DNA from: Flavobacterium petrolei
GTDB lineage: Bacteria > Bacteroidota > Bacteroidia > Flavobacteriales > Flavobacteriaceae
Direction: 5' to 3'
NCBI RefSeq assembly: GCF_003314435.2
Contig: NZ_QNVY02000001.1
Coordinates: 1,054,001 to 1,118,000 of the forward strand
Length of the DNA stretch: 64,000 nt
Shown here: positions 293 to 33,128 of the stretch, in pieces
Layout: each line of letters opens with the position of its first letter
Position numbering within the stretch: position 1 is the stretch's first letter
Translations under genes and position numbers: made by a program
Notes under the pieces: generated by a model
The model's database searches: none
Told to the model about the DNA's origin: nothing
Seen by the model: only the letters and a program-made list of their open reading frames with translations

Positions 293-422
293 GTTTAATT
301 CAAACGACTTGATTTCACTACAAAAATAGATTTTTTTACCGTAAAATAAGCCATTAGAATTAAAAAATCACTAAGCGATACAAAAAGAACTTCTAGCGTT
401 ACTTTTATAAAAACTATAATGA

Positions 423-430
423 TAATTTTG
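423..430 (+). promoter_or_regulatory. Putative -7 promoter box of hemA
   Basis: TAATTTTG matches the Bacteroidota -7 consensus TAnnTTTG and ends 25 nt before the chosen hemA ATG. No convincing -33 TTG was found at the usual distance. Confidence 0.4.
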
Positions 431-455
431 TTCCACTTTCTTGAAAAGTGCAAAT

Positions 456-1712
456 ATGGAAAACAATAACACATCAAAGCATCACTATTTTTACGCAGTT
501 GGATTGAGCTATAAAAAAGCAGATGCTGAGATTAGAGGTAAGTTTAGTTTAGACGCTGCTGCAAAAACGCGTTTGCTGGAACAAGCTAAGAATGAAGGAA
601 TAGAGAGTTTAATAGTCACTTCTACCTGCAACCGTACTGAAATTTACGGTTATGCGGAACATCCCTTTCAATTAATCAAATTAATTTGCGAGAATAGTCA
701 AGGCTCTGTTGAAGCGTTTCAAAAGGTAGGTTTTGTCTATAAGAATCAGGAAGCCATCAGCCACATGTTTCGTGTAGGAACTGGTTTAGACAGTCAGATT
801 CTGGGTGATTTTGAAATTATCGCACAAATAAGAAATTCCTTTTCACAGTCAAAATCGTTGGGTTTAGCCAATGCTTTTATGGAAAGATTAGTGAATGCAG
901 TTATCCAAGCTAGTAAAAAAATAAAAACAGATACAGAAATTAGTTCTGGCGCTACTTCGGTTTCTTTTGCCGCAGTTCGCTATATTATCAACAATGTGCA
1001 AGACATTGGAAACAAAAACATCCTCTTGTTTGGTACCGGAAAAATTGGTAGAAATACGTGTGAAAATTTAGTAAAACATACTAAAAACGAACATATTACG
1101 CTAATCAACAGAACCAAAGAGAAAGCAGAGAAATTAGCCGGAAAGTTAAATTTAATCGTAAAAGATTATTCTGAACTGCATTTGGAACTACAAAAAGCAG
1201 ATGTTGTTGTGGTAGCGACCGGTGCACAAAACCCTACTATTGACAAAGCGATTCTGAATTTGAAAAAACCAATGTTGATTTTGGATTTATCGATTCCGAA
1301 AAACGTGGATGAAAATGTGGAAGAAATTGATGGTGTTACCTTGATTCACATGGATTATTTGTCACAACTAACAGACGAAACTTTAGAAAATAGAAAAAAA
1401 CACATTCCTGCTGCTGAGGCGATCATCGAAGAAATTAAAGAGGAGTTTATAACTTGGACCAAAGGCAGAAAATTTGCACCGACAATCAATGCTTTGAAAG
1501 CAAAATTGAATGCGATAAAAACATCTGAATTAGATTTCCAAAGTAGAAAGATTTCAAATTTCAATGAAGAGCAAGCGGAGATTATCAGCAACAGAATTAT
1601 CCAAAAAATAACGACTCATTTCGCTAATCATTTGAAAGATGATGATACTATGGTAGATGAAAGTATTGAATGGATTGAGAAAGTTTTCAAAATAGGAGCG
1701 ACTACAAGATAA
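456..1712 (+). CDS. hemA: Glutamyl-tRNA reductase
   Basis: 418 aa. Reduces glutamyl-tRNA to glutamate-1-semialdehyde with NADPH, the first committed step of the C5 tetrapyrrole pathway. The catalytic cysteine is Cys58 in STCNRTEIYG; the conserved GTGLDSQILGDFEI segment follows near residue 110-125, and a Rossmann nucleotide motif (NILLFGTGKIGRNT) lies near residue 190; the C-terminal helical dimerisation domain is complete. An in-frame TTG lies 15 nt upstream, but the ATG at 456 gives the usual N-terminus and is preferred. The stop overlaps the hemC start (TAATG), so hemA-hemC-hemD look translationally coupled. hemL is not in this window. Confidence 0.97.
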   Translation: MENNNTSKHHYFYAVGLSYKKADAEIRGKFSLDAAAKTRLLEQAKNEGIESLIVTSTCNRTEIYGYAEHPFQLIKLICENSQGSVEAFQKVGFVYKNQEAISHMFRVGTGLDSQILGDFEIIAQIRNSFSQSKSLGLANAFMERLVNAVIQASKKIKTDTEISSGATSVSFAAVRYIINNVQDIGNKNILLFGTGKIGRNTCENLVKHTKNEHITLINRTKEKAEKLAGKLNLIVKDYSELHLELQKADVVVVATGAQNPTIDKAILNLKKPMLILDLSIPKNVDENVEEIDGVTLIHMDYLSQLTDETLENRKKHIPAAEAIIEEIKEEFITWTKGRKFAPTINALKAKLNAIKTSELDFQSRKISNFNEEQAEIISNRIIQKITTHFANHLKDDDTMVDESIEWIEKVFKIGATTR

Positions 1713-2629
1713 TGAGCAAAACAATACGAATAGGAACTCGCGATAGCGAACTCGCGCTTTGGCAAGCCCATACCGTCGAAAAAAAACTAAATGATTTAGG
1801 CTATAAAACCGAAATTTTAGCGGTAAAATCACAAGGAGATATCATCCTTGACAAACCACTTTACGAATTAGGAATCACAGGAATTTTTACTAAAACGCTT
1901 GATATCGCCATGATAAATGGCGATGTTGATATTGCGGTGCATTCCATGAAAGATGTTCCTACGGCTTTGCCAATAGGAATTGTTCAGGCGGCTGTTCTGG
2001 AAAGAGCGAATACGTTGGATATTTTGGTACACAAAGGAAACCTTGATTTTCTTAATGGCGAAGGAACAATTGCCACAGGAAGTTTGCGTCGTCAAGCACA
2101 ATGGCTGAACAAATATCCCAATCACAAAGTAGTGGATTTGCGTGGAAACGTAAATACGAGAATGAAGAAATTGCAGGAAAGCGATTGGAACGGAGCGGTT
2201 TTCGCGGCAGCAGGATTAGAGAGAATCAACTTGAAACCTTCTAATTATATCGATTTGGATTGGATGATTCCAGCGCCGGCTCAAGGTGCTATGGTTGTTG
2301 TTGCAATGGCAAATGATGAATTTTGCAGACAAGCGCTAAACGAACTTAACGATATTGATACCGAAGTATGTACACATATCGAAAGACAGTTTTTAAAAAC
2401 ACTCGAAGGCGGTTGTACGGCACCAATAGGCGCTTTAGCAGTTTTTGTAGAAGATGATATTTTGTTTAAAGGCGTTCTGTTTTCTATCGATGGAAAGCAA
2501 AAAATCGAAATTGAAAAAACCGTTCCGATGCAAGAATGGAAGAAATTAGGCTTTTATTGTGCCAAAGAAATTTTAGAAAATGGCGGAGCAGAATTGATGA
2601 CAGCAATTAAAATTAATTTGAAAAAATAA
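1712..2629 (+). CDS. hemC: Hydroxymethylbilane synthase (porphobilinogen deaminase)
   Basis: 305 aa, normal length. Polymerises four porphobilinogens into hydroxymethylbilane in the cytosol. Visible hallmarks: the N-terminal IRIGTRDSELALWQA segment, the HSMKDVPT motif, GSLRRQAQ and RGNVNTR in the active-site region, and the dipyrromethane-cofactor cysteine in LEGGCTAPIGA near residue 235. It starts on the A of the hemA stop (TAATG) and ends in the same way on hemD, giving 1-nt overlaps at both ends. Expected partners are hemB upstream in the pathway and hemD downstream, both in this cluster. Confidence 0.98.
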   Translation: MSKTIRIGTRDSELALWQAHTVEKKLNDLGYKTEILAVKSQGDIILDKPLYELGITGIFTKTLDIAMINGDVDIAVHSMKDVPTALPIGIVQAAVLERANTLDILVHKGNLDFLNGEGTIATGSLRRQAQWLNKYPNHKVVDLRGNVNTRMKKLQESDWNGAVFAAAGLERINLKPSNYIDLDWMIPAPAQGAMVVVAMANDEFCRQALNELNDIDTEVCTHIERQFLKTLEGGCTAPIGALAVFVEDDILFKGVLFSIDGKQKIEIEKTVPMQEWKKLGFYCAKEILENGGAELMTAIKINLKK

Positions 2630-3312
2630 TGAGCCAAACAAGCATTTTATCCACCAAAACATTGTCGGCAGAACAAAGGCAATTATTTATTGATGCTAAT
2701 TTTGATCTTTTAGAACAAGATTTCATCGAAATCAAAAACAACCTTTTTGAATTGAAAACAATCAACAATAACTTGATTTTTAGTAGCCAAAATGCTGTTT
2801 TAAGTTTGATAGAACAAAACGGTTGGGAAGTTTTAAAGACGAAACCTGTTTTTTGCGTAGGTATTAAAACCAAGGAGTTACTGGAGTCGCATGGCTTTAC
2901 AGTCGATGTTTATTTGGATTACGCATCTGAATTAGCTGAAATAATCACTTTGATTTACAATAAGGAAAGCTATACTTTTTTGAGCGGAAATTTGCGTAAA
3001 GAAACGTTGCCAGAAGCATTAAAAAGCGCAGGAATAACTTTTAATGAAATCGAGGTGTATCAAACAGCGCTTGCGCCTTTTAAAATATCAGACCAGGAAA
3101 ATTTTGACGGAATTTTATTTTTTAGTCCATCTGGTGTTGAAAGTTATTTGACAAACAATAAAATCAAGAATGAAGTTTGTTTTTGCATAGGCACTACTAC
3201 TGCATCAGCATTAGAAACAAAGAAAATTAAAAACATAGTAATTGCCGAAACACCAACTATCGAAGAGGTGATTGAGGAAGTTATTGCATATTATAAAACG
3301 GAAAGCATCTAG
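2629..3312 (+). CDS. hemD: Uroporphyrinogen-III synthase
   Basis: 227 aa. Cyclises hydroxymethylbilane with inversion of ring D to uroporphyrinogen III. HemD sequences diverge strongly; support here is the two-lobe pattern, [15 protein letters not shown] and the IEVYQTAL segment, [16 protein letters not shown], and a final [13 protein letters not shown] segment, plus its place directly after hemC with a TAATG overlap and before hemE. Length is slightly short of the 245-250 aa typical of proteobacterial enzymes, usual for Bacteroidota. Confidence 0.93.
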
Positions 3313-3334
3313 CAATCTGCTAAAATTAAAATAC

Positions 3335-4360
3335 ATGATTAAGAACGACCTATTTTTAAGAGCACTAAAAGGAGAAACTGTACAACGTCCACCAGTTTGG
3401 ATGATGCGTCAAGCGGGAAGATATTTGCCGGAATTCATCGCTTTGCGTGATAAATATGATTTTTTCACGCGTTGTCAAACACCGGAATTAGCTGCTGAAA
3501 TCACGGTACAACCAATAAGAAGAATTGCTCCGGATGCTGCGATTTTGTTTTCGGATATTTTGGTAATTCCTCAAGCAATGGGAATCGAAGTAGAGATGAA
3601 ACCTAATTTTGGTCCGTATTTACCAAATCCAATTCGTACAATTCAAGATGTGGAGAAAGTCATCGTTCCAGATGTTCATGAAACATTAGGTTACGTTTTT
3701 GACGCTATCAAATTGACCAAAGAAATGTTGAATGATGAGGTGCCGTTAATTGGTTTCGCAGGTTCGCCTTGGACAATTATGTGTTATGCAGTGGAAGGGA
3801 AAGGTTCTAAAAGTTTTGATATGGCCAAGGGATTTTGTTTCCAACATCCAGAAGCAGCGCACGTTTTATTGCAAAAAATCACAGATACAACTATTTTATA
3901 CCTAAAAGAAAAAGTAAAAGCGGGAGTAAATGCCGTTCAAATTTTTGACTCTTGGGGCGGAATGTTATCTCCAGTGGATTATCAAGAATTCTCTTGGAAA
4001 TACATCAACCAAATCATTGAAGCTTTGGCAGATGATGCACCGGTAATTGTTTTTGGAAAAGGATGTTGGTTCGCATTAGGCGAAATGGGGAAAAGTAGAG
4101 CATCAGCATTAGGTGTTGACTGGACTTGTTCTCCAAGAAATGCAAGATACTTGTCTGGTGGAAACATCACGTTACAAGGAAATTTTGATCCTTCCAGATT
4201 GTTGTCTCCAATTCCGGTGATTAAGAAAATGGTACACGAAATGATCGATGAATTCGGAAAAGATAAATACATCGTGAATTTAGGTCACGGAATTTTACCA
4301 AATATTCCTGTGGATCACGCGAAAGCGTTTATTGATGCAGTGAAGGAATACAATCAGTAA
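3335..4360 (+). CDS. hemE: Uroporphyrinogen decarboxylase
   Basis: 341 aa. Removes four acetate carboxyls from uroporphyrinogen III to give coproporphyrinogen III. The two family signatures are visible: [15 protein letters not shown] near the N-terminus and [16 protein letters not shown] near residue 145; the catalytic aspartate sits in the segment [11 protein letters not shown]. The frame is open upstream into hemD (21 extra codons), but the ATG at 3335, giving [13 protein letters not shown], is the usual start and lies 22 nt after the hemD stop. Last gene before the REP/transposase insertion. Confidence 0.97.
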
Positions 4361-4379
4361 TATTTATTTTACTGTATTT

Positions 4380-4408
4380 CCTGCAAGGTTTTTTTTGAAC
4401 CTTGTAGG
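4380..4408 (+). repeat. REP-like hairpin 1 (upstream pair)
   Basis: 11-bp arms CCTGCAAGGTT / AACCTTGTAGG around a 7-nt T-rich loop, one mismatch. First element of an inverted pair; its partner starts 32 nt downstream on the other strand. Confidence 0.8.
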
Positions 4409-4440
4409 TGTTTTTTAAAATTTTGCTGACATGGTTTATA

Positions 4441-4466
4441 CCTACAAGGTTAAAAAACCTTGCAGG
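4441..4466 (-). repeat. REP-like hairpin 2 (upstream pair)
   Basis: Arms CCTACAAGGTT / AACCTTGCAGG with a 4-nt loop. Read on the minus strand it is a copy of hairpin 1 followed by TATAA, so hairpins 1 and 2 face each other in BIME-like fashion. It ends about 20 nt before the transposase start codon. Confidence 0.8.
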
Positions 4467-4486
4467 ATCAACTTAAAATGTATAAT

Positions 4487-5038
4487 ATGAAATTAGAAGT
4501 TTTAGAAAAAGATTGCTATTATCATATTTACAATAAAGGAATTAATGGTGCTCCTATTTTCGAAAATGATGAAAACAAAATTTTCTTTTTAAAACAACTT
4601 TCAAAATATTTATTGGGTAAAATCTCAATATTTGGATATTGCTTAATGGATAATCATTTTCATTTAATTATCCGATTAAATGAAGATGAGAAAATAGTGA
4701 CACAGGCATTTTCTAATTTTTTTAATTCTTATGCTAAAGCTTTTAATAAACATATAGACAGAACCGGAAGCTTATTTGAAAAACATTTTAAGAGGATAAA
4801 GCTAAACGATGAAAATTATTTGAAACAATTGATACTATATGTGCATTTGAATCCGAAGCATCATTTAGATTTAAAATTTCAGGATTATAAGTATTCTTCC
4901 TATCAAGCTTTTATTTCCATTAAAGAAACAAAAATAGAGAAAGAAGAAGTGTTGAAGCTGTTTGGAGGTATAGAAAATTTCGTTTTTTGTCACAATCAAA
5001 AAAATTATTTTTTAACTGAAAAACACACATTTGAGTAA
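4487..5038 (+). CDS. REP-associated tyrosine transposase (RAYT, Y1_Tnp/IS200-like)
   Basis: 183 aa single-domain Y1 transposase. The HUH metal site is YCLMDNHFHLIIRL (His57, His59) and the probable nucleophile is Tyr82 in FFNSYAKAFNK; the conserved RTGSLFEKHFKR and LILYVHLNPKHH blocks follow. RAYTs are domesticated IS200-like enzymes that act on REP hairpins. Two hairpins precede and two follow the gene, which matches that role. ATG at 4478 (three codons longer) is an alternative start; an in-frame TTG at 4460 lies inside hairpin 2 and is unlikely. It interrupts hemE and hemF, both intact. The frame is intact, so it may be active. Confidence 0.9.
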   Translation: MKLEVLEKDCYYHIYNKGINGAPIFENDENKIFFLKQLSKYLLGKISIFGYCLMDNHFHLIIRLNEDEKIVTQAFSNFFNSYAKAFNKHIDRTGSLFEKHFKRIKLNDENYLKQLILYVHLNPKHHLDLKFQDYKYSSYQAFISIKETKIEKEEVLKLFGGIENFVFCHNQKNYFLTEKHTFE

Positions 5039-5050
5039 TATTGTTTCAAT

Positions 5051-5076
5051 CTTGTAAGGTTTTTTTAACCTTACAG
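5051..5076 (+). repeat. REP-like hairpin 3 (downstream pair)
   Basis: CTTGTAAGGTT / AACCTTACAG arms with a T-rich loop, more diverged than hairpins 1, 2 and 4. Begins 12 nt after the transposase stop and may also work as its terminator. Confidence 0.7.
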
Positions 5077-5110
5077 CTAAGTTAGATTAGGAATATCATC
5101 ACTAGTTATA

Positions 5111-5137
5111 CCTACAAGGTTTTGGAAACCTTGCAGG
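5111..5137 (-). repeat. REP-like hairpin 4 (downstream pair)
   Basis: CCTACAAGGTT / AACCTTGCAGG around TTGGA-type loop. Preceded by TTATA exactly like hairpin 2, so the inverted-pair arrangement is repeated on the downstream side, with a 34-nt spacer. Confidence 0.8.
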
Positions 5138-5197
5138 AAAGCAAGATGTTTACGTTTGAAATATTTAATAAGTTAGTTGCTGCAAAGCAAATTTATA

Positions 5198-6106
5198 ATG
5201 AAAAATCAATTTTACACCTACATACAAAACCTTCAAGACCAAATCTGTAAAGGATTGGAAGCTGTTGAAGGTCAAGCCAAATTCCGAGAAGACCTTTGGG
5301 AACGTCCGGAAGGCGGAGGCGGAAGAACCCGCGTGATAGAAAACGGAAAGGTTTTCGAAAAAGGCGGAGTTAATATTTCGGCAGTTCACGGGAAATTGCC
5401 CGAAGCCATGCAGAAAATGTTCAATGTAGGCGAAGCTGATTTTTTTGCCTGTGGATTGAGTTTGGTATTACATCCGAAAAATCCAATGACACCAACCGTT
5501 CATGCCAATTGGCGTTATTTCGAAATGTACGATGAGAACGGAAATGTAATCCAGCAATGGTTTGGAGGCGGACAGGATTTAACCCCATATTATCTGTTTG
5601 AAGAAGATGCAATTCATTTTCATCAAACTTGTAAAACCGCTTGCGACAAACATAATCCGGAGTTTTATCCAAAATATAAGAAACAATGTGATGCCTATTT
5701 CTGGAACGTTCACCGCAATGAAGCACGAGGAATTGGTGGATTGTTTTTCGATTATTGCAAAGCAACAGATGACATGAGTATGCAAAATTGGTACAACTTT
5801 GTAACCGAAGTTGGAAATAGTTTCCTGCAAGCTTATGTTCCCATTGTTGAAAAACGAAAAAACTTACCGTATACTCCAGAACAAAGAACGTGGCAGGAAA
5901 TCCGTCGCGGTCGTTATGTCGAGTTTAATTTGGTTCATGACAAAGGCACTTTATTTGGTCTAAAAACTAACGGAAGAATCGAAAGTATCCTGATGAGTTT
6001 ACCACCACATGTGCAATGGGTATACGACCATCACGCTGAACCTGGAAGCGAAGAAGAAAAATTAGTAAACGTATTAGAAACCCCAAAAAGTTGGATTGCA
6101 GATTGA
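5198..6106 (+). CDS. hemF: Oxygen-dependent coproporphyrinogen-III oxidase
   Basis: 302 aa. Oxidatively decarboxylates two propionates of coproporphyrinogen III to give protoporphyrinogen IX, using O2. Strong family segments: FREDLWERPEGGGGRTRV, GGGQDLTPYYLFEEDA, FHQTCKTACD, RGIGGLFFDY and GRYVEFNLVHDKGT, followed by ESILMSLPP. The frame extends upstream to a TTG at 5177 but ATG at 5198 gives the expected start. An O2-dependent HemF instead of HemN fits an aerobic lifestyle. Separated from hemE by the RAYT/REP unit. Confidence 0.97.
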   Translation: MKNQFYTYIQNLQDQICKGLEAVEGQAKFREDLWERPEGGGGRTRVIENGKVFEKGGVNISAVHGKLPEAMQKMFNVGEADFFACGLSLVLHPKNPMTPTVHANWRYFEMYDENGNVIQQWFGGGQDLTPYYLFEEDAIHFHQTCKTACDKHNPEFYPKYKKQCDAYFWNVHRNEARGIGGLFFDYCKATDDMSMQNWYNFVTEVGNSFLQAYVPIVEKRKNLPYTPEQRTWQEIRRGRYVEFNLVHDKGTLFGLKTNGRIESILMSLPPHVQWVYDHHAEPGSEEEKLVNVLETPKSWIAD

Positions 6107-26562: not shown

Positions 26563-27030
26563 TTATTCTTTTAGTTTGGCTAAAATCAGCTTTAATTCTT
26601 TTGGTTTTAAGTACCCGCTGTGCTGAAAAATAATCTCGTTTCCACTGTTCAAAACACACAAAACAGGAAAGTTCAATTGCTTATTTATTGTTCCGAGTGC
26701 GATTGCCAGTTCATGTGTTCCGAAGTTGTTTCCTGTGGGTTTGAATTGAAAAGTGGTTTTATTGAAAACTACCGTTCGTTTTTCTTCGGCATTGAAATCA
26801 ACAAAATAAAAAGTGTTGTTAAGCTCCATGATGATTTCCTCATTTTTGAAAGTGGTGTTTTTCATCGCATGACAAAATTGGCACCAATCGGTTTGAATGA
26901 AAACAATCGTTTTTCTCTTTTCGATTGTTTGTATACTGTCTATTTGTTCGAAGGAAACCGAATGCAACTGCGCAAATCCAGCCGGAATCGCACAGCATAA
27001 TAACAATAGTAAATAAAGATTCTTTTTCAT
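26563..27030 (-). CDS. Periplasmic thioredoxin-family protein
   Basis: 155 aa. Signal peptide (about 1-20, LLLLCCAIPAGFAQ) and a thioredoxin-like domain with the redox motif TDWCQFCHAM (Cys50, Cys53), of the DsbD-gamma/thioredoxin_7 type. Predicted periplasmic disulphide reductase or metal-reducing factor. Its ATG overlaps the TonB receptor stop (TAATG), so the two are translationally coupled; the receptor plug carries a CxxC that would be a natural substrate (inference). Confidence 0.85.
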   Translation of the reverse strand: MKKNLYLLLLLCCAIPAGFAQLHSVSFEQIDSIQTIEKRKTIVFIQTDWCQFCHAMKNTTFKNEEIIMELNNTFYFVDFNAEEKRTVVFNKTTFQFKPTGNNFGTHELAIALGTINKQLNFPVLCVLNSGNEIIFQHSGYLKPKELKLILAKLKE

Positions 27031-29306
27031 TATTTTAAAGTATAGCGAAGGCCGAAAAAGCTTCTGATTCCTTGGTTCGGCCCATAGACATAAGTCGTGT
27101 CAAACGTTAATCCATAAGGGTTTTCGGGTGTTGCTAACACTTGACCGTTTGTATCATAAGTTACATTTTTTTCAAAAGGATCATTGGTTCTTGCAATCAA
27201 AAATGGATTGTTTTGTTTAGGCAAAAAGTTCAGTAGGTTTTTAATTCCGGCATAGAATTCAAAGTTTTTCAAACCAGAATACGTGAATTGGATGTTTTGC
27301 AAACTGTACCAAGGCGATTCCGCAGCGCGAGGATCTAAAGCACTTAAAAGAGGCAATTGCATCGGACTGTATACATTTCCAGTATAGTCTACATTCAAAT
27401 CAATTGCTTGAATTTTATACGAAACACTCCAGGTTGCCGTAAATTTTTCGGTTAGAAAAGGTGTTTCTTTTCGGCCATTTTCAACGTTTTTGTTGTCAAG
27501 AAAAGAAGCGCCTGTGATAATCTTTAATCCATTTGGAAAATTGAAATCAATATTGGTACTGATTCCTTGGTTTATCGCATAACCATTGATGTTGTCATAA
27601 ATAATTTGGTTGGGATTCGTATCGTAGTCCGACACAATTTTATTACTGAATCGCGTATGGAAAAAGGAAGTTTCAATTCCAATAAAAGTTCCGTTGTCGA
27701 GATTTATCTTCTTGATATAAATCAAATTGGCATTTATGGATTGTTCCGGTTTCAGGTTATTGGCAATTACAATTTCACGAGCGCCAGTCAAAGCAGCATG
27801 GTCTTCGGTAAATAGATTGACTACTCTAAAACCCGTTCCTGCATTCAAACGTATGATATTATTGTCGTTCAATTTCCATTTATAAGCAATTCTTGGTGTT
27901 AAGATGCTTCCGTGAAACGAGTTGTAATCATAACGCATTCCCAGTAATAGCTTGTGTTTTTCTGTAAACGTGATTTCGTCTTGAACAAAAATTCCCGGTA
28001 ACCAGGTCTTTTCCGGGTTGTTGTCCCCCAGTTTTGAAGTTGCCGGTGTATTGTCATCGTAATAATTATAACGGGTGGCAATTCCGGTAAGTAAATCATG
28101 GTTTCCTATTTTTTTGTCCCAAGTCAATTGTAGAAAACCAATCTTTTGATTCGCAATATAACTCGTCGTGCCGTATCGGCTGTCTTGAAAATGTACATTT
28201 CCTGAAAAGGAAAGCATCAGTTTTTCCTGAAATGGCAATTGGTAACTTCCAATCAATTCCGCTCGTTTGGTATAAATGCTTTCGCCATAGATTTCGTCAC
28301 CGCCACGGTGTTTTTTCTCCCAACGCACATCGCCGCCAAAACGGTCTTCATAAACGCCCCGCGCCGCAATGGTGAACAATCGATTTTCTTTTCTGTCGAA
28401 AGTCCATTTTTGAAAAAGGGAAACTCTGTCCGAAAGGGAAACATCGGTAAAACCGTCGTTATCGTTGTCAATTTTTTGATTGTAGCTGAAATAATTTAAA
28501 CCTAAAATTGCCGTGGCTTTCTTCCCAACATTGAGCTTTACTCCTAAATCAACATTGGTTTCCAACCAAGAAGTAGAAAACACATCAGCAGAGAATAGGG
28601 GAGCGTTTATCGGATTTTTGGTAATGATATTGATCAAACCGCCCACGGCTTCACTGCCGTATAAAGAAGAAGCGGGACCTTTTACAATTTCTATTCGTTC
28701 CACCAGTGAATTTGGAATTCCGGATAATCCATACACCGTAGATAAACTGCTCACGATGGGCATTCCGTCGATTAAAACCAAAGTATACGGACCTTCCAAC
28801 CCATTAATGTGGATGTCGCCCGTGTTGCAAACCCCACAATTCAGTTGCGGTCGTACGCCATTTACATTTTGTAAGGCTTCATAAATACTGGCCGTTGGGT
28901 TTTTCTTGAAGAATATTGGAGAATAAACTTCTACTGGAACGGCGCTTTCTAATCTTTTTACCGCCTTCAATGTTCCCGAAACCACGACTTCGTTAAGTTG
29001 GTTTTCGGTATTTGAAAGTTCAAAATCCAGAATGTTGTTTTCATTACTTTTGACGGTTATGTTCTTTTTTAAAGTTTGAAAACCTTCTGCAACAATTTGT
29101 ATTTTATAATTTCCCTCAGCAATATTCTCGATGCTGTATTTTCCTAAACTATCCGTTTGGGTGGCGTATTTTGTTCCAATTAAAAAAATATGAGCCTTCA
29201 AAACTCCTTTTTTTTCTGATGAAACAAATCCCGAAAGACTCGTTTTTTCTTGGCTGTAGCCAAAGTGAAACATCAGAAAAATAAATAACACACATAATTT
29301 TTTCAT
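27030..29306 (-). CDS. TonB-dependent outer-membrane receptor with carboxypeptidase-like N-terminal domain
   Basis: 758 aa. Signal peptide (1-19), CarboxypepD_reg-like beta domain (about 22-105, SGFVSSEKKGVLKAHIFL), plug with NCGVCNTGDIHINGLEGPY and IEIVKGPASSLYGSEAVGG, then a 22-strand barrel ending FFGLRYTLK. Cys157 and Cys160 form a CxxC in the plug. ATG at 29306 chosen over one 24 nt upstream because it gives a clean signal peptide. It starts an operon with the thioredoxin-like gene and crtY. The promoter has a TAGTTTTG -7 box directly followed by a sequence shared with feoA and the FecA-like receptor, so an iron or haem/siderophore substrate is likely but unproven. Confidence 0.9.
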   Translation of the reverse strand: MKKLCVLFIFLMFHFGYSQEKTSLSGFVSSEKKGVLKAHIFLIGTKYATQTDSLGKYSIENIAEGNYKIQIVAEGFQTLKKNITVKSNENNILDFELSNTENQLNEVVVSGTLKAVKRLESAVPVEVYSPIFFKKNPTASIYEALQNVNGVRPQLNCGVCNTGDIHINGLEGPYTLVLIDGMPIVSSLSTVYGLSGIPNSLVERIEIVKGPASSLYGSEAVGGLINIITKNPINAPLFSADVFSTSWLETNVDLGVKLNVGKKATAILGLNYFSYNQKIDNDNDGFTDVSLSDRVSLFQKWTFDRKENRLFTIAARGVYEDRFGGDVRWEKKHRGGDEIYGESIYTKRAELIGSYQLPFQEKLMLSFSGNVHFQDSRYGTTSYIANQKIGFLQLTWDKKIGNHDLLTGIATRYNYYDDNTPATSKLGDNNPEKTWLPGIFVQDEITFTEKHKLLLGMRYDYNSFHGSILTPRIAYKWKLNDNNIIRLNAGTGFRVVNLFTEDHAALTGAREIVIANNLKPEQSINANLIYIKKINLDNGTFIGIETSFFHTRFSNKIVSDYDTNPNQIIYDNINGYAINQGISTNIDFNFPNGLKIITGASFLDNKNVENGRKETPFLTEKFTATWSVSYKIQAIDLNVDYTGNVYSPMQLPLLSALDPRAAESPWYSLQNIQFTYSGLKNFEFYAGIKNLLNFLPKQNNPFLIARTNDPFEKNVTYDTNGQVLATPENPYGLTFDTTYVYGPNQGIRSFFGLRYTLK

Positions 29307-29378: not shown

Positions 29379-29411
29379 TAAAAAAAAGCGGTTCATCATG
29401 ACAATGAACCA
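29379..29411 (-). terminator. Terminator of merC-cobW
   Basis: GGTTCAT / ATGAACC stem (29390-29410) followed on the minus strand by GC and eight T. Confidence 0.88.
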
Positions 29412-29456
29412 CTTGATTACCCAATAATTAACCAAAACGATCAGGATTTATAACTA

Positions 29457-30698
29457 TTATATTTTATTTAAAACGGCTATTTCTTTGTCGTTTTGATATG
29501 CTCTAGCAATAGGAAAAGCATCTTTGCTGGAGAAAAAACCATCTTGCAAATCCATAATTTCATCGGCGGTGCAAAGGCAATTTTCTAGTTGTTTCCGAAT
29601 CAAATTTTCCTCCATTTGCAGGCCTATGAATACGATTTCGTTTAAGCGGTCCCCAAAATTAGCGGTCCATCGTTCCTCAATAATGTCTTGGTTTTCGACA
29701 AAATTGTTAAAAGTCATGCGTTCTCCCAGCGACATGCTGGCCCACCATACGCCTGCGCCTTCAGCCTTCATAGATCCTCCGGCCTGACTCCAGTTGATGG
29801 CTTGCTCCGGTCTGGAAGCAATCCAGCAAAGTCCTTTACTTCTGATGATGTTTTGGGGAAAATACTTTGTCAGGAATTGCCAAAAACGTTGTGGGTGCAA
29901 GGGGCGTTCGTCTCGAAAAACAAAAGATGAAATTCCATATTCTTCGGTTTCAGGCGTATGAATTCCTTCGAGTTCCTGCATCCATCCGGCTGATGATTCG
30001 GCTTCTTCGTAGTTGAATAATCCGGTGTTTAAAATGGCGCTTGGTGGTACTTTTCCTAGAACGGAAGTGATTAGTGTTGCAACAGGATTTAATTTTTGAA
30101 TGGAGGCTTTTAGAATTTCCAGTTCTTTTTGGGTAACCAAATCGGTTTTGTTCAGAATAATAACGTTGGCAAACTCTACTTGATCGACCAGCAGGTTTAC
30201 AATTGTTCGATTATCGTTTTCAATATCTGATGCTTTTCGGTCTTGAAGGGTTTGGGCTGAGCCAAAATCTTTAAAGAAATTAAAGGCATCGACCACGGTG
30301 ACCATTGTATCAATAAAACTAAATTGAGATAAATCAATGTTTTCCTCTTCATTTACAAATGAAAAAGTTTGCGCTACCGGAATCGGTTCGCTGATTCCGG
30401 AGCTTTCAATCAGCAGATAATCAAAACGGTTTTCTTTGGCTAATTTCTCAACCTCAATCATTAAATCTTCCCGCAGCGTGCAGCAAATACAGCCGTTGCT
30501 CATTTCGATTAACCGCTCTTCAGTGCGAGACAATGTGTTTTCTGCTTTTACTAAATTGGCATCAATGTTAACCTCACTCATATCGTTTACGATTACAGCT
30601 ACTTTTAAACCTTCTTTATTGTGTAGGATATGATTGAGCAAAGTAGTTTTTCCGGCTCCTAAGAAACCGGATAAAACGGTTACGGGTAATTTTTTCAT
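29457..30698 (-). CDS. CobW/COG0523-family GTP-binding metallochaperone
   Basis: 413 aa G3E GTPase. Walker [12 protein letters not shown] (11-21), metal motif [12 protein letters not shown] (Cys70, Cys72, Cys73), NKTD near residue 178, and a C-terminal CobW_C domain ([12 protein letters not shown]). COG0523 proteins such as ZNG1/ZagA deliver zinc to client enzymes under zinc limitation and are often Zur-controlled. Start overlaps the merC stop by 1 nt, and the pair diverges from a Fur-family gene with palindromes in between, which supports zinc over cobalt. A strong terminator follows. Confidence 0.9.
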
Positions 30699-31048
30699 TA
30701 GTGCGTGTTTTTATGATTGCTGTAGTTTATCAAATGCCCGAGAATCATTCCAATGCCACCAACGATTAATAAATTAGTATGATAATCCAAAAAAATATCA
30801 ATAAACGCACTCAGGAGGATTAGGGTGATTGAAGTTAAAAGCAATACTACAACGATTAAACTTGCTTTCTTTATAATGTTTAAAACCGCCCATAATCCAA
30901 CAGTAGCAAAAGCTAAATCGATATACGGATTGTGAGACAGTCCTAAAGGGAGTATTGACAGTAAAGGGAAAATTAAACAATGGAGCAAGCATAATCCGGC
31001 ACTCGAAATCCCTAAAATATCCATTTTTAATGATGTAGTTTTCTTCAT
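30698..31048 (-). CDS. MerC-domain membrane protein
   Basis: 116 aa with four predicted helices. Near the N-terminus [17 protein letters not shown] carries the conserved Cys-Cys/His pair of MerC, and the C-terminus ends in the histidine-containing NYSNHKNTH. MerC was named as a mercury importer, but flavobacterial relatives sit next to cobW genes and Fur/Zur regulators; here there is no merA or merR, so a role in metal (zinc) uptake or sensing is more likely. First gene of the merC-cobW unit, divergent from the Fur-family gene. Confidence 0.8.
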
Positions 31049-31068
31049 TTTCTTTTATATTTGCTTAA

Positions 31069-31083
31069 TGCAATTGTGTTGCA
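31069..31083. promoter_or_regulatory. Candidate Zur box 1
   Basis: TGCAATTGTGTTGCA: 5-bp arms TGCAA/TTGCA around 5 nt, 21 nt upstream of the merC start. Shares GCAA...TGTTGC with box 2. Confidence 0.55.
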
Positions 31084-31103
31084 AATATAGAAATATAATT
31101 TAT

Positions 31104-31122
31104 AACGCAACAATGTTGCGTT
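31104..31122. promoter_or_regulatory. Candidate Zur box 2
   Basis: AACGCAACAATGTTGCGTT is a perfect 9-bp inverted repeat with a 1-nt centre, 16 nt before the Fur-family start codon. Placement suggests autoregulation together with control of merC-cobW. Confidence 0.65.
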
Positions 31123-31137
31123 TAATTTTATTTGATT

Positions 31138-31521
31138 ATGAAAACAACTCGAAATACAACCGCCAAAACAACCATTTTAGAAATTATAAAAAATTCTGAA
31201 GTTGCTTTATCGCATACTGAAATTCAGGCGTTAAGCCAAAATGTTTGTGATCGAGTTACGATTTATAGGGTTTTAGATCGCTTGGTTGCTGAGGATGTGA
31301 TTCATAAAACAGTAAATTTAGACGGAACCATCAAGTATGCGAGTTGCCATCACCTGCATGATGATGTTATACACACCCATAATCACATTCATTTTAGTTG
31401 CGAGAAATGTCACTTGGTTACATGCCTTGAAAATGTAGAACCAACCTTTAAATTGCCACCCAACTACTCAGTAAGAGAAGTCAATTTTACGCTTTCCGGA
31501 TTGTGTCCTAACTGTTTATAG
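31138..31521 (+). CDS. Fur-family metal-responsive repressor, probably Zur
   Basis: 127 aa. Winged helix (LSHTEIQALSQNVCDRVTIYRVLDRLV), hinge with a histidine-rich metal site (CHHLHDDVIHTHNHIH) and two structural-zinc CxxC pairs (Cys88/Cys91 and Cys123/Cys126). ATG at 31138 is preferred over the TTG two codons earlier. Zur rather than Fur is suggested by divergence from merC-cobW with two GCAA..TTGC palindromes between, and by the iron genes having a different operator. In vitro metal preference cannot be read from the sequence. Confidence 0.85.
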   Translation: MKTTRNTTAKTTILEIIKNSEVALSHTEIQALSQNVCDRVTIYRVLDRLVAEDVIHKTVNLDGTIKYASCHHLHDDVIHTHNHIHFSCEKCHLVTCLENVEPTFKLPPNYSVREVNFTLSGLCPNCL

Positions 31522-31534
31522 TTTGCTAATTTAT

Positions 31535-31550
31535 TTTAGACTTGGCTAAA
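31535..31550. promoter_or_regulatory. Inverted repeat upstream of the DtxR-family gene
   Basis: TTTAG - ACTTGG - CTAAA, located before two possible -7 boxes (TATTTTTG about 31554-31561 and TATATTTG about 31577-31584). Half-sites resemble the iron operator but the spacer is 6 nt rather than 7. Possible autoregulatory site. Confidence 0.4.
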
Positions 31551-31659: not shown

Positions 31660-32307
31660 ATGACCTTTTCAGAAGAAAATTATCTCAAGACCATTTACCA
31701 CCTTACTTCCGTTTCGGATGCAGATATTAGCACTAATGCTATTGCTGAAAAAATGGAAACCAAAGCATCATCCGTTACCGATATGCTCAAGAAACTCTCC
31801 GAAAAAGACTTAGTCAATTACGTAAAATATCAAGGCGTTTCCCTTACTGACAAAGGAAAATTAGCGGCGAAGATGATTGTTAGAAAACACCGACTTTGGG
31901 AATGTTTTCTGGTAGAGAAACTAGATTTTTCTTGGGATGAGGTACACGATATTGCGGAACAATTGGAACACATCAAATCCGAAAAACTGATCAATAAATT
32001 GGATGATTTTTTGGGAAATCCTACCGAAGATCCACATGGAGATCCTATTCCGGATGCTAATGGACGAATTATAAAAGTTGAAAAGCAACTGCTTTCTGAA
32101 TTCGAGAAAAACCAAATCGGGATTTGTGTCGGTGTTAAAGATACATCTTCTGATTTTTTAAAATATTTAGACAAACAGGAAATTGCTTTGGGTTCCCAAA
32201 TTGAAATTATCGAAAAGGAAAGTTTTGATTCCTCTTTCAGAATTCGGGTTGGAACCAAAGAAATAACCATTTCAAATAAAATAGCCAGTAATTTATATAT
32301 CAAATAA
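31660..32307 (+). CDS. DtxR/MntR-family metal-dependent transcriptional regulator
   Basis: 215 aa. N-terminal winged helix (YLKTIYHLTSV..., ASSVTDMLKKLSEKDLV), metal-binding dimerisation domain and a C-terminal SH3/FeoA-like domain, the three-domain DtxR layout. Predicted metal ligands: Asn7 (Met10 in DtxR, Asp8 in MntR), His77, Glu81, His96, Glu100, Glu103, His104. Glu100 replaces the DtxR cysteine, as in MntR. ATG at 31660 preferred over 31630. Two nt upstream of a ZIP transporter gene, hence co-transcribed; probably controls iron and/or manganese uptake, including the nearby feo genes. Confidence 0.9.
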   Translation: MTFSEENYLKTIYHLTSVSDADISTNAIAEKMETKASSVTDMLKKLSEKDLVNYVKYQGVSLTDKGKLAAKMIVRKHRLWECFLVEKLDFSWDEVHDIAEQLEHIKSEKLINKLDDFLGNPTEDPHGDPIPDANGRIIKVEKQLLSEFEKNQIGICVGVKDTSSDFLKYLDKQEIALGSQIEIIEKESFDSSFRIRVGTKEITISNKIASNLYIK

Positions 32308-32309
32308 TT

Positions 32310-33128
32310 ATGTTTCAATCTATAGTAGATTATTTCACGAGTATCGACCCAATATTAGCCGCTTTGTATGCGAGTTTGTTTACTTGGTTCCTAACGGCTT
32401 TAGGGGCTTCGTTTGTTTTTATGTTTAAAACCATGAATCGGACGGTTCTTGACGGAATGCTCGGGTTTACGGGAGGTGTTATGGTTGCGGCCAGTTTTTG
32501 GAGTTTATTGGCTCCAGCCATAGAGATGACGGGCGGGGAAGGATTTGCAAAAGTGATTCCTGCAGCTTTTGGTTTTTTCCTTGGTGCGCTTTTCATTTTC
32601 GGAATTGATAAAGTGTTGCCGCATTTGCACATCAATTTTAAAGTTACCGAAGGAATCAAATCGCCTTGGCAACGCACCACATTATTGGTTTCGGCAATTA
32701 CACTACACAATATTCCGGAAGGATTGGCGGTTGGAGTTCTGTTTGGTGGTGTTGCTGCTGGTATTCCGGAAGCTTCCATCGCGGGCGCTGTTACGTTAGC
32801 AATTGGTATTGGAATTCAGAATTTTCCGGAAGGAATCGCTGTTGCCATGCCGTTGCGCAGAATGGGAATGAGCCGATGGAAAAGTTTTATGTACGGACAA
32901 TCTTCTGCATTAGTTGAGCCGGTTGCCGCTGTTTTAGGCGCTTTTGCAGTCACATTTTTCACTCCAATTTTACCATACGCTTTGGCTTTTGCCGCAGGCG
33001 CGATGATTTTTGTGGTGGTCGAAGAAGTAATTCCGGAAACACAACAGGATAAAAATACGGATATTGCCACGCTCGGTTTCGTTGGAGGATTTATTGTGAT
33101 GATGGTCTTGGATGTGGCTTTAAGTTAG
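32310..33128 (+). CDS. ZIP-family metal transporter (GufA/ZupT type)
   Basis: 272 aa with eight predicted helices. The paired metal motifs of the family are TLHNIPEGLAVG (His133, Glu137) in helix 4 and IQNFPEGIAVAMPL (Asn171, Glu174) in helix 5. The histidine-rich cytosolic loop of zinc-specific ZIPs is short here (HLHINF). Imports Zn, Fe or Mn; the operon with a DtxR-type regulator (2-nt gap) suggests Fe or Mn. Complete and in frame. Confidence 0.9.
   Translation: MFQSIVDYFTSIDPILAALYASLFTWFLTALGASFVFMFKTMNRTVLDGMLGFTGGVMVAASFWSLLAPAIEMTGGEGFAKVIPAAFGFFLGALFIFGIDKVLPHLHINFKVTEGIKSPWQRTTLLVSAITLHNIPEGLAVGVLFGGVAAGIPEASIAGAVTLAIGIGIQNFPEGIAVAMPLRRMGMSRWKSFMYGQSSALVEPVAAVLGAFAVTFFTPILPYALAFAAGAMIFVVVEEVIPETQQDKNTDIATLGFVGGFIVMMVLDVALS

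Follow-up and report, generated by a model that had tools for sequence, protein, structure and literature searches.

Two palindromic sites in the intergenic region between the divergent merC-cobW and zur genes very probably form the paired operator of the adjacent Zur-like protein, serving a zinc-starvation regulon in which the sites are embedded in the promoter. The sites, their pairing, their conservation, their gene company and their overlap with a promoter were established by computation. The analysis covered the window, the entire 64,000-nucleotide stretch presented above, which lies at C1:1054001-1118000 of a 3.74-Mb genome (G000), and related genomes; at the zur locus the nearest named relatives are Flavobacterium.

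Organization of the divergent region

The gap between the start of merC (31048, minus strand) and the ATG of the Fur-family gene (31138, plus strand) measures exactly 89 bp (31049-31137). The original prediction had placed a perfect 9-bp inverted repeat and a related repeat in this gap, and the coordinates and arms of both were verified. The repeats, here termed site B and site A, and the features surrounding them are as follows.

27030..29306, minus strand: TonB-dependent receptor (PF00593, PF07715), of uncertain membership in the regulon here
29386..29414, minus strand: terminator-like hairpin and T-run 3' of cobW (terminator scan)
29457..30698, minus strand: CobW/COG0523 GTPase, ZigA-like (PF02492 and PF07683; NF038288)
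30698..31048, minus strand: MerC-family membrane protein with a CxxHC motif (PF03203; alignment)
31069..31083, no strand: site A, TGCAATTGTGTTGCA (TGCAATT-G-TGTTGCA), proposed second Zur operator over the merC -7 box and start
31082..31089, minus strand: predicted merC promoter, -7 box TATATTTG, which overlaps site A (consensus from PMC9723704)
31104..31122, no strand: site B, perfect 9-1-9 palindrome AACGCAACA-A-TGTTGCGTT (sequence)
31106-31120: core of site B, CGCAACAATGTTGCG, proposed Zur operator; 15 bp separate the end of site B from zur
31108..31110, minus strand: predicted merC promoter, -33 TTG, located within site B (TTG-N18-TAnnTTTG in the window)
31138..31521, plus strand: zur, putative Zur-like Fur-family repressor of 127 aa (best solved relative E. 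coli Zur; conserved ligands)
31535..31550, no strand: DtxR/MntR-type box TTTAGACTTGGCTAAA, one mismatch, between zur and the dtxR-ZIP genes
31660..32307, plus strand: DtxR/MntR-type metal regulator (PF02742, PF01325, FeoA domain)
32310..33128, plus strand: ZIP metal transporter (PF02535), a candidate alternative zinc importer

Site A pairs at the five outer of its seven arm positions around a 1-nt centre, and in this respect is a weaker relative of site B. The hairpin at 29386-29414 may split the TonB receptor off the merC-cobW transcript; with two terminator-like hairpins in the region against 1.4 in shuffled sequences, it is weak on its own. The receptor was rejected as a sure regulon member given this hairpin and the lack of a site before its gene, where the best match has three mismatches.

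Conservation of the paired sites

The palindrome by itself is no rarer than chance, and the reality of the sites was decided by conservation. Two perfect 9-1-9 repeats were found in the window against 0.85 (sd 0.85) expected from 20 Markov sequences, which is unremarkable, while the pair pattern GCAAYNNNRTTGC-N19-30-GCAAYNNNRTTGC was found once in the window and in none of 150 Markov sequences of 64 kb. Of the 120 other genus genomes examined, 36 have a zur relative at 54-83% identity. Both sites were exact in 29 of 30 fetched regions upstream of zur (own included), and the remaining one, L025, has a single mismatch in site A.

A set drawn from the named collection comprised the best 80 of 199 zur relatives; it overlaps the 30 upstream regions and is rich in near relatives, and among its entries two or three are labelled otherwise (Sphingobacterium; one bin as Klebsiella). 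Within this set of partly redundant loci both sites were exact before the zur orthologue at 74 of the 80, a single mismatch in site A was present at five (L111, L138, L156, L165, L167), and one locus (L094) retains site B only, site A being lost. The core of site B was exact before zur at all 80. The start-to-start spacing in the 75 recognised pairs was 36 (55 loci), 37 (18) or 38 (2). When 29 non-redundant upstream regions were compared with the window, the footprint of both cores stood out; the upstream comparisons show a variable centre in the palindromes, with the arms kept and the spacing to the second site fixed.

The palindromes could instead be the target of another dimeric regulator, a terminator or a chance repeat, given that 9-1-9 repeats are not rare and that the terminator scan flags 31104-31122. 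We consider this extremely improbable: the region sits before the starts of both divergent genes, the centre varies between arms that are conserved at a fixed spacing to the second site, and divergent members of one regulator family are repeatedly accompanied by these sites. A chance palindrome or hairpin was set aside given the arm conservation and the fixed pairing before orthologous genes.

Overlap with the predicted merC promoter

The motif TAnnTTTG at -12 to -5 corresponds to the sigma-A box mapped in F. psychrophilum, as described in the available text of PMC9723704. From the position of this box the merC start is predicted near 31077, inside site A. On the merC strand the TTG is supplied by site B and the last G of TAnnTTTG is the first base of site A. 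This strict fusion of promoter and operator was present toward merC at 73 of the 80 named loci and toward zur at none, with spacers of 17 (54 loci), 18 (17, the spacer of the window) or 19 (2). A looser form, TTG-N14-22-TAnnTTTG, was found on the merC strand at 79 of the 80 loci, compared with 152 of 12,772 other 140-bp stretches, and the fusion was also found in 20 of 26 two-site loci examined (own included). Judged from its position, site A is no lesser copy of site B, since it overlaps the -7 box and the predicted start of merC.

The Zur-like regulator

The regulator lies out of reach of the Pfam FUR model and scored 30.3 bits against the Zur equivalog NF008646, under the cut-off of 167; we take NF008646 to be a model for proteobacterial Zur. 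With a single-sequence phmmer search E. coli Zur (4mtd, 1.6e-5) was the sole solved relative under 0.001. A 12-row profile brought six solved structures under 0.01, with Bacillus cereus Fur on top, followed by the Zurs of E. coli, Xanthomonas, M. tuberculosis and S. coelicolor (two chains). In the five alignments C70 stands opposite a Cys in all four Zurs but not in Fur. A structure model gave Foldseek E values down to 7e-7 and TM scores to Zur (4mtd/3mwm/7dh8) of up to 0.66-0.69; its mean pLDDT is 72 and falls below 50 at residues 72-82, the metal loop, so the ligands cannot be placed in it.

The original prediction described a Fur-type protein with a His-rich site and two CxxC pairs, and this description held: the CxxC pairs are at 88/91 and 123/126, and residues 71-85 form the His-rich loop. 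C88, C91, C123 and C126 are invariant in 12 sequences and align with the structural Cys4 of E. coli Zur. The sensor ligands of the latter are His77, Cys88, His96 and Glu111 in the numbering of PMC4219657. Opposite H77, C88 and H96 stand H56, C70 and H81, all invariant; Glu111 falls in a 2-residue insertion and has no clear partner, with C96 close by. A second subclade (L196 type) aligns an Asp at the H81 position. Tyr45, which is specific to Gram-negative Zur, is not conserved, the aligned position holding Thr, Ala or Ser, which fits the different operator. The operator GCAAY-NNN-RTTGC satisfies the RNNNYxxxRNNNY rule, which describes the element of one E. coli Zur dimer (PMC4219657). Two more Fur-family genes were found in this genome, one (L224) without the sensor Cys and the CxxC pairs and one (L225/L089) with both.

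At L089 12103-12129 (G000 C17), just behind this second Zur-like paralog, lies a perfect palindrome with 13-bp arms around TGCAATCGGATTGCA, its half-site being the same as that of zur. The genes that follow it encode a small Cys/His protein, an RND pump resembling CzcA and a P-type ATPase; it may be an operator or a terminator.

Genes accompanying the paired site

A single-site scan of 61 genus genomes gave mixed matches, several of them inside genes, and therefore the two-site pattern was used. This pattern was present in 28 of 397 family genomes and absent from 369, and the reversed pattern was found in none of the 397; a stricter two-site form was present in 22 of 395 phylum genomes, with none for the reversed control. 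The 28 two-site loci fetched, which fall short of all places, were reduced to 27 by exclusion of L213 (G218) as a tandem repeat: from position 1500 a tandem array with a 32-bp period, containing GCAACACCGTTGC, imitates the two-site pattern and is unrelated.

Gene company at the 27 loci was counted by tblastn and comprised a Fur-family gene at 20, MerC at 15, FolE at 8, an ABC ATPase at 7 and CobW at 3; only L203, L205 and L222 had neither Fur nor MerC. Family models confirmed FolE, MerC and FUR in L196, the ABC protein in L206 and an M1 peptidase in L203. Outside the family, the strict pair adjoins a Fur-type gene (L256, by eye), genes for an AztD-like protein (L257) and a DUF1826 protein (L258), and those for ZigA-like GTPases (L273, by model; L274, by eye). 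No nameable zinc-linked gene lies by the pair at L271 and L272, and L205 and L222 likewise have site pairs without a zinc-linked neighbour.

A second site pair was found near the zur locus at L093, L097, L098 and L105, and at the first three it precedes genes for a lipoprotein and an AztD-like protein. The protein from L093 matched the AztD structure 6cmk at 3.8e-19; the relatives' proteins gave 93 and 82 bits (82 for L093) against the AztD model NF038015, whose cut-off is 400, and are called AztD-like. At L094 (labelled F. micromati) a same-strand island divergent from zur (298-5913) has a content like that of zinc starvation, in the order CobW, threonyl-tRNA ligase (ThrS), dCTP deaminase (Dcd), FolE, Fur paralog, QueD relative (PTPS/QueD, 76 bits, under the cut-off) and merC. 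Here merC lies 5.3 kb from zur, behind one full site and one degenerate site with two mismatches.

The original prediction of a zinc regulon thus finds support in the Zur-like protein and in the zinc-linked genes at the paired site in relatives, with zinc the probable signal. The zinc reading rests on the linked ZigA-like, FolE, QueD-like, ThrS and AztD-like genes in relatives; FolE2, QueD, ThrRS and COG0523 have been linked to Zur (PMC2770081).

Two further arrangements were observed. In L203 and L087, at about 1070-1620, a site pair is flanked on one side by a gene for a small exported protein that contains His and on the other by one for an M1 aminopeptidase (matched by model in L203), perhaps a peptide or zinc scavenging pair. 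In L059 and L067, at about 1501-1516, TGCAAC-N3-GTTGCA directly precedes a heavy-metal P-type ATPase gene (L059 by model; L067 by eye). The corresponding genomes, G020 and G018, have only distant Zur relatives, and a Fur paralog may run metal efflux through the same box.

Other sites within the genome

Further copies of the motif had been anticipated elsewhere in this genome, before znuA and rpmE-like genes among others, and were not borne out: the strict motif has a single occurrence. Other exact single sites found there lie inside ORFs or behind a Fur paralog, and single-site scans of this genome were rejected as proof, the matches being mostly inside ORFs. ZnuA is absent from this genome and present in one of 61 genus genomes, by a search that was also positive in 11 of 14 genomes serving as controls. 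In that one genus genome (L275) the 3.8 kb fetched contain no site at up to one mismatch. A single L31 gene was found in the present genome (L276, G000 C16:357775-358011); it is of the Cys-free type, at a locus without a Zur-like site. A palindrome confined to this place would have counted against the original prediction: the exact pair is indeed confined to a single place in the 3.74-Mb genome, but across relatives it recurs.

The MerC and CobW proteins

MerC matched PF03203 with 36.2 bits (gathering score 27.6) over nearly the whole domain, and CxxHC is common to all 15 aligned MerC proteins. MerC is present in 36 of 149 family genomes. Among 30 MerC loci fetched, a strict site lies within 400 bp in 14 and none in 12, with four unparsed, so that 12 of 26 parsed genes are without a strict site at this distance. 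The CobW/COG0523 GTPase scored 555.8 bits over the full length of the ZigA model NF038288, narrowly missing the cut-off of 600, and is called ZigA-like.

The mercury-resistance name carried by PF03203 would suit a merC operon that confers resistance to mercury or heavy metals and is switched on by toxic metal. This is very improbable, as the neighbours of the site are a Fur-family regulator, COG0523, FolE and AztD-like genes, and neither mercury reductase nor MerR was found among the window proteins scanned. MerC is rather a candidate zinc membrane protein.

The neighbouring DtxR-type circuit and the sensed metal

Allowing no more than one mismatch to TTTAGACNNGTCTAAA, a box was present within 1.8 kb after zur at 70 of the 80 named loci and in one of 77 control stretches; the DtxR-type motif is at chance level when counted with up to three mismatches in the window alone. 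The suggestion of two metal circuits side by side is upheld by this recurrence. Zinc import by a ZIP protein is known from Riemerella anatipestifer (PMC11960050), and the ZIP protein encoded here is therefore a rival importer to MerC.

We regard it as unlikely that the same regulator and sites respond to Mn, Fe, Co or Ni in place of zinc. An NRAMP transporter adjoins zur at 65 of the 80 loci and a DtxR-type regulator at 72, the top profile match among solved structures is a Fur, and the structure model is unable to place the metal ligands. However, the NRAMP and DtxR neighbours are under a different box directly after zur, the sensor Cys is common to the Zurs and missing from the Fur match, and the gene company is typical of zinc starvation.

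A model for zinc-dependent control

With zinc as the metal and repression as the sign, we infer that one regulator dimer would occupy each GCAAY-N3-RTTGC site when zinc is present. In the divergent merC-cobW promoter the -33 element would be covered by site B, and the -7 box together with the start by site A, so that both core elements would be blocked at once. Site B lies directly before zur, and autoregulation through it is possible. When zinc is short the dimers would depart, allowing production of the membrane protein of the MerC type and of the ZigA-like GTPase. The genes under these sites in relatives would include those for FolE, AztD-like chaperones and ABC ATPases, among others.

An extension of this model is put forward tentatively, as less likely than not. 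The Zur half-sites (GTTGC, TTTGCAAC) would double as the unusual promoter elements of the phylum, the -33 TTG and the -7 TAnnTTTG, making operator pair and promoter one object, and the CxxHC MerC-type protein most often guarded by it would be a hitherto unnoticed inner-membrane zinc importer replacing the absent ZnuABC, a zinc-starvation design of the Bacteroidota's own.

Comparison with known systems

Among the matches listed from the open-access literature there was no paper on a Bacteroidota Zur regulon. The available text of two Zur reviews (PMC6103462, PMC8000910) has no word starting with 'Bacteroid' or 'Flavobacter', and in that of the two reviews and one COG0523 survey the searched Bacteroidota terms are absent except for one Cytophaga entry, on urease genes. 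Because of this scope, a Zur-like regulon in Bacteroidota whose operator pair is built into the promoter is provisionally considered new.

Zur regulons of other phyla (PMC6103462, PMC8000910) resemble it in their Fur-family protein with a sensor Cys and Cys4, their palindromic operator, and COG0523 and FolE as companions. Unlike these, the present system has a TTGCAAC-type motif, an operator pair fused to the Bacteroidota -33/-7 elements and a MerC gene as usual partner, and most of the genus is without ZnuABC. Zur box pairs over -35 and -10 are known elsewhere (PMC6103462), and the double boxes of B. subtilis yciC and S. coelicolor znuA (same source) likewise lie on upstream and downstream core promoter elements; here, in contrast, the pair has a near-fixed spacing, recurs across genera and is shared with the divergent regulator gene. 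ZIP/ZupT of R. anatipestifer (PMC11960050), an experimental zinc importer from the same order, has its counterpart in the ZIP gene next door, which here stands outside the merC operon and behind the DtxR-type box.

The mercury-transport MerC (PF03203) and the protein described here share a Pfam match across nearly the whole domain. The motif of mercury MerC is CxxC, whereas here CxxHC is found in all 15 aligned proteins, in zinc-type gene company. Several phyla have known Zur regulons; for the Bacteroidota, the motif with its two-site rule makes zinc regulons predictable from sequence, and it suggests a zinc role for proteins that owe their name to mercury.
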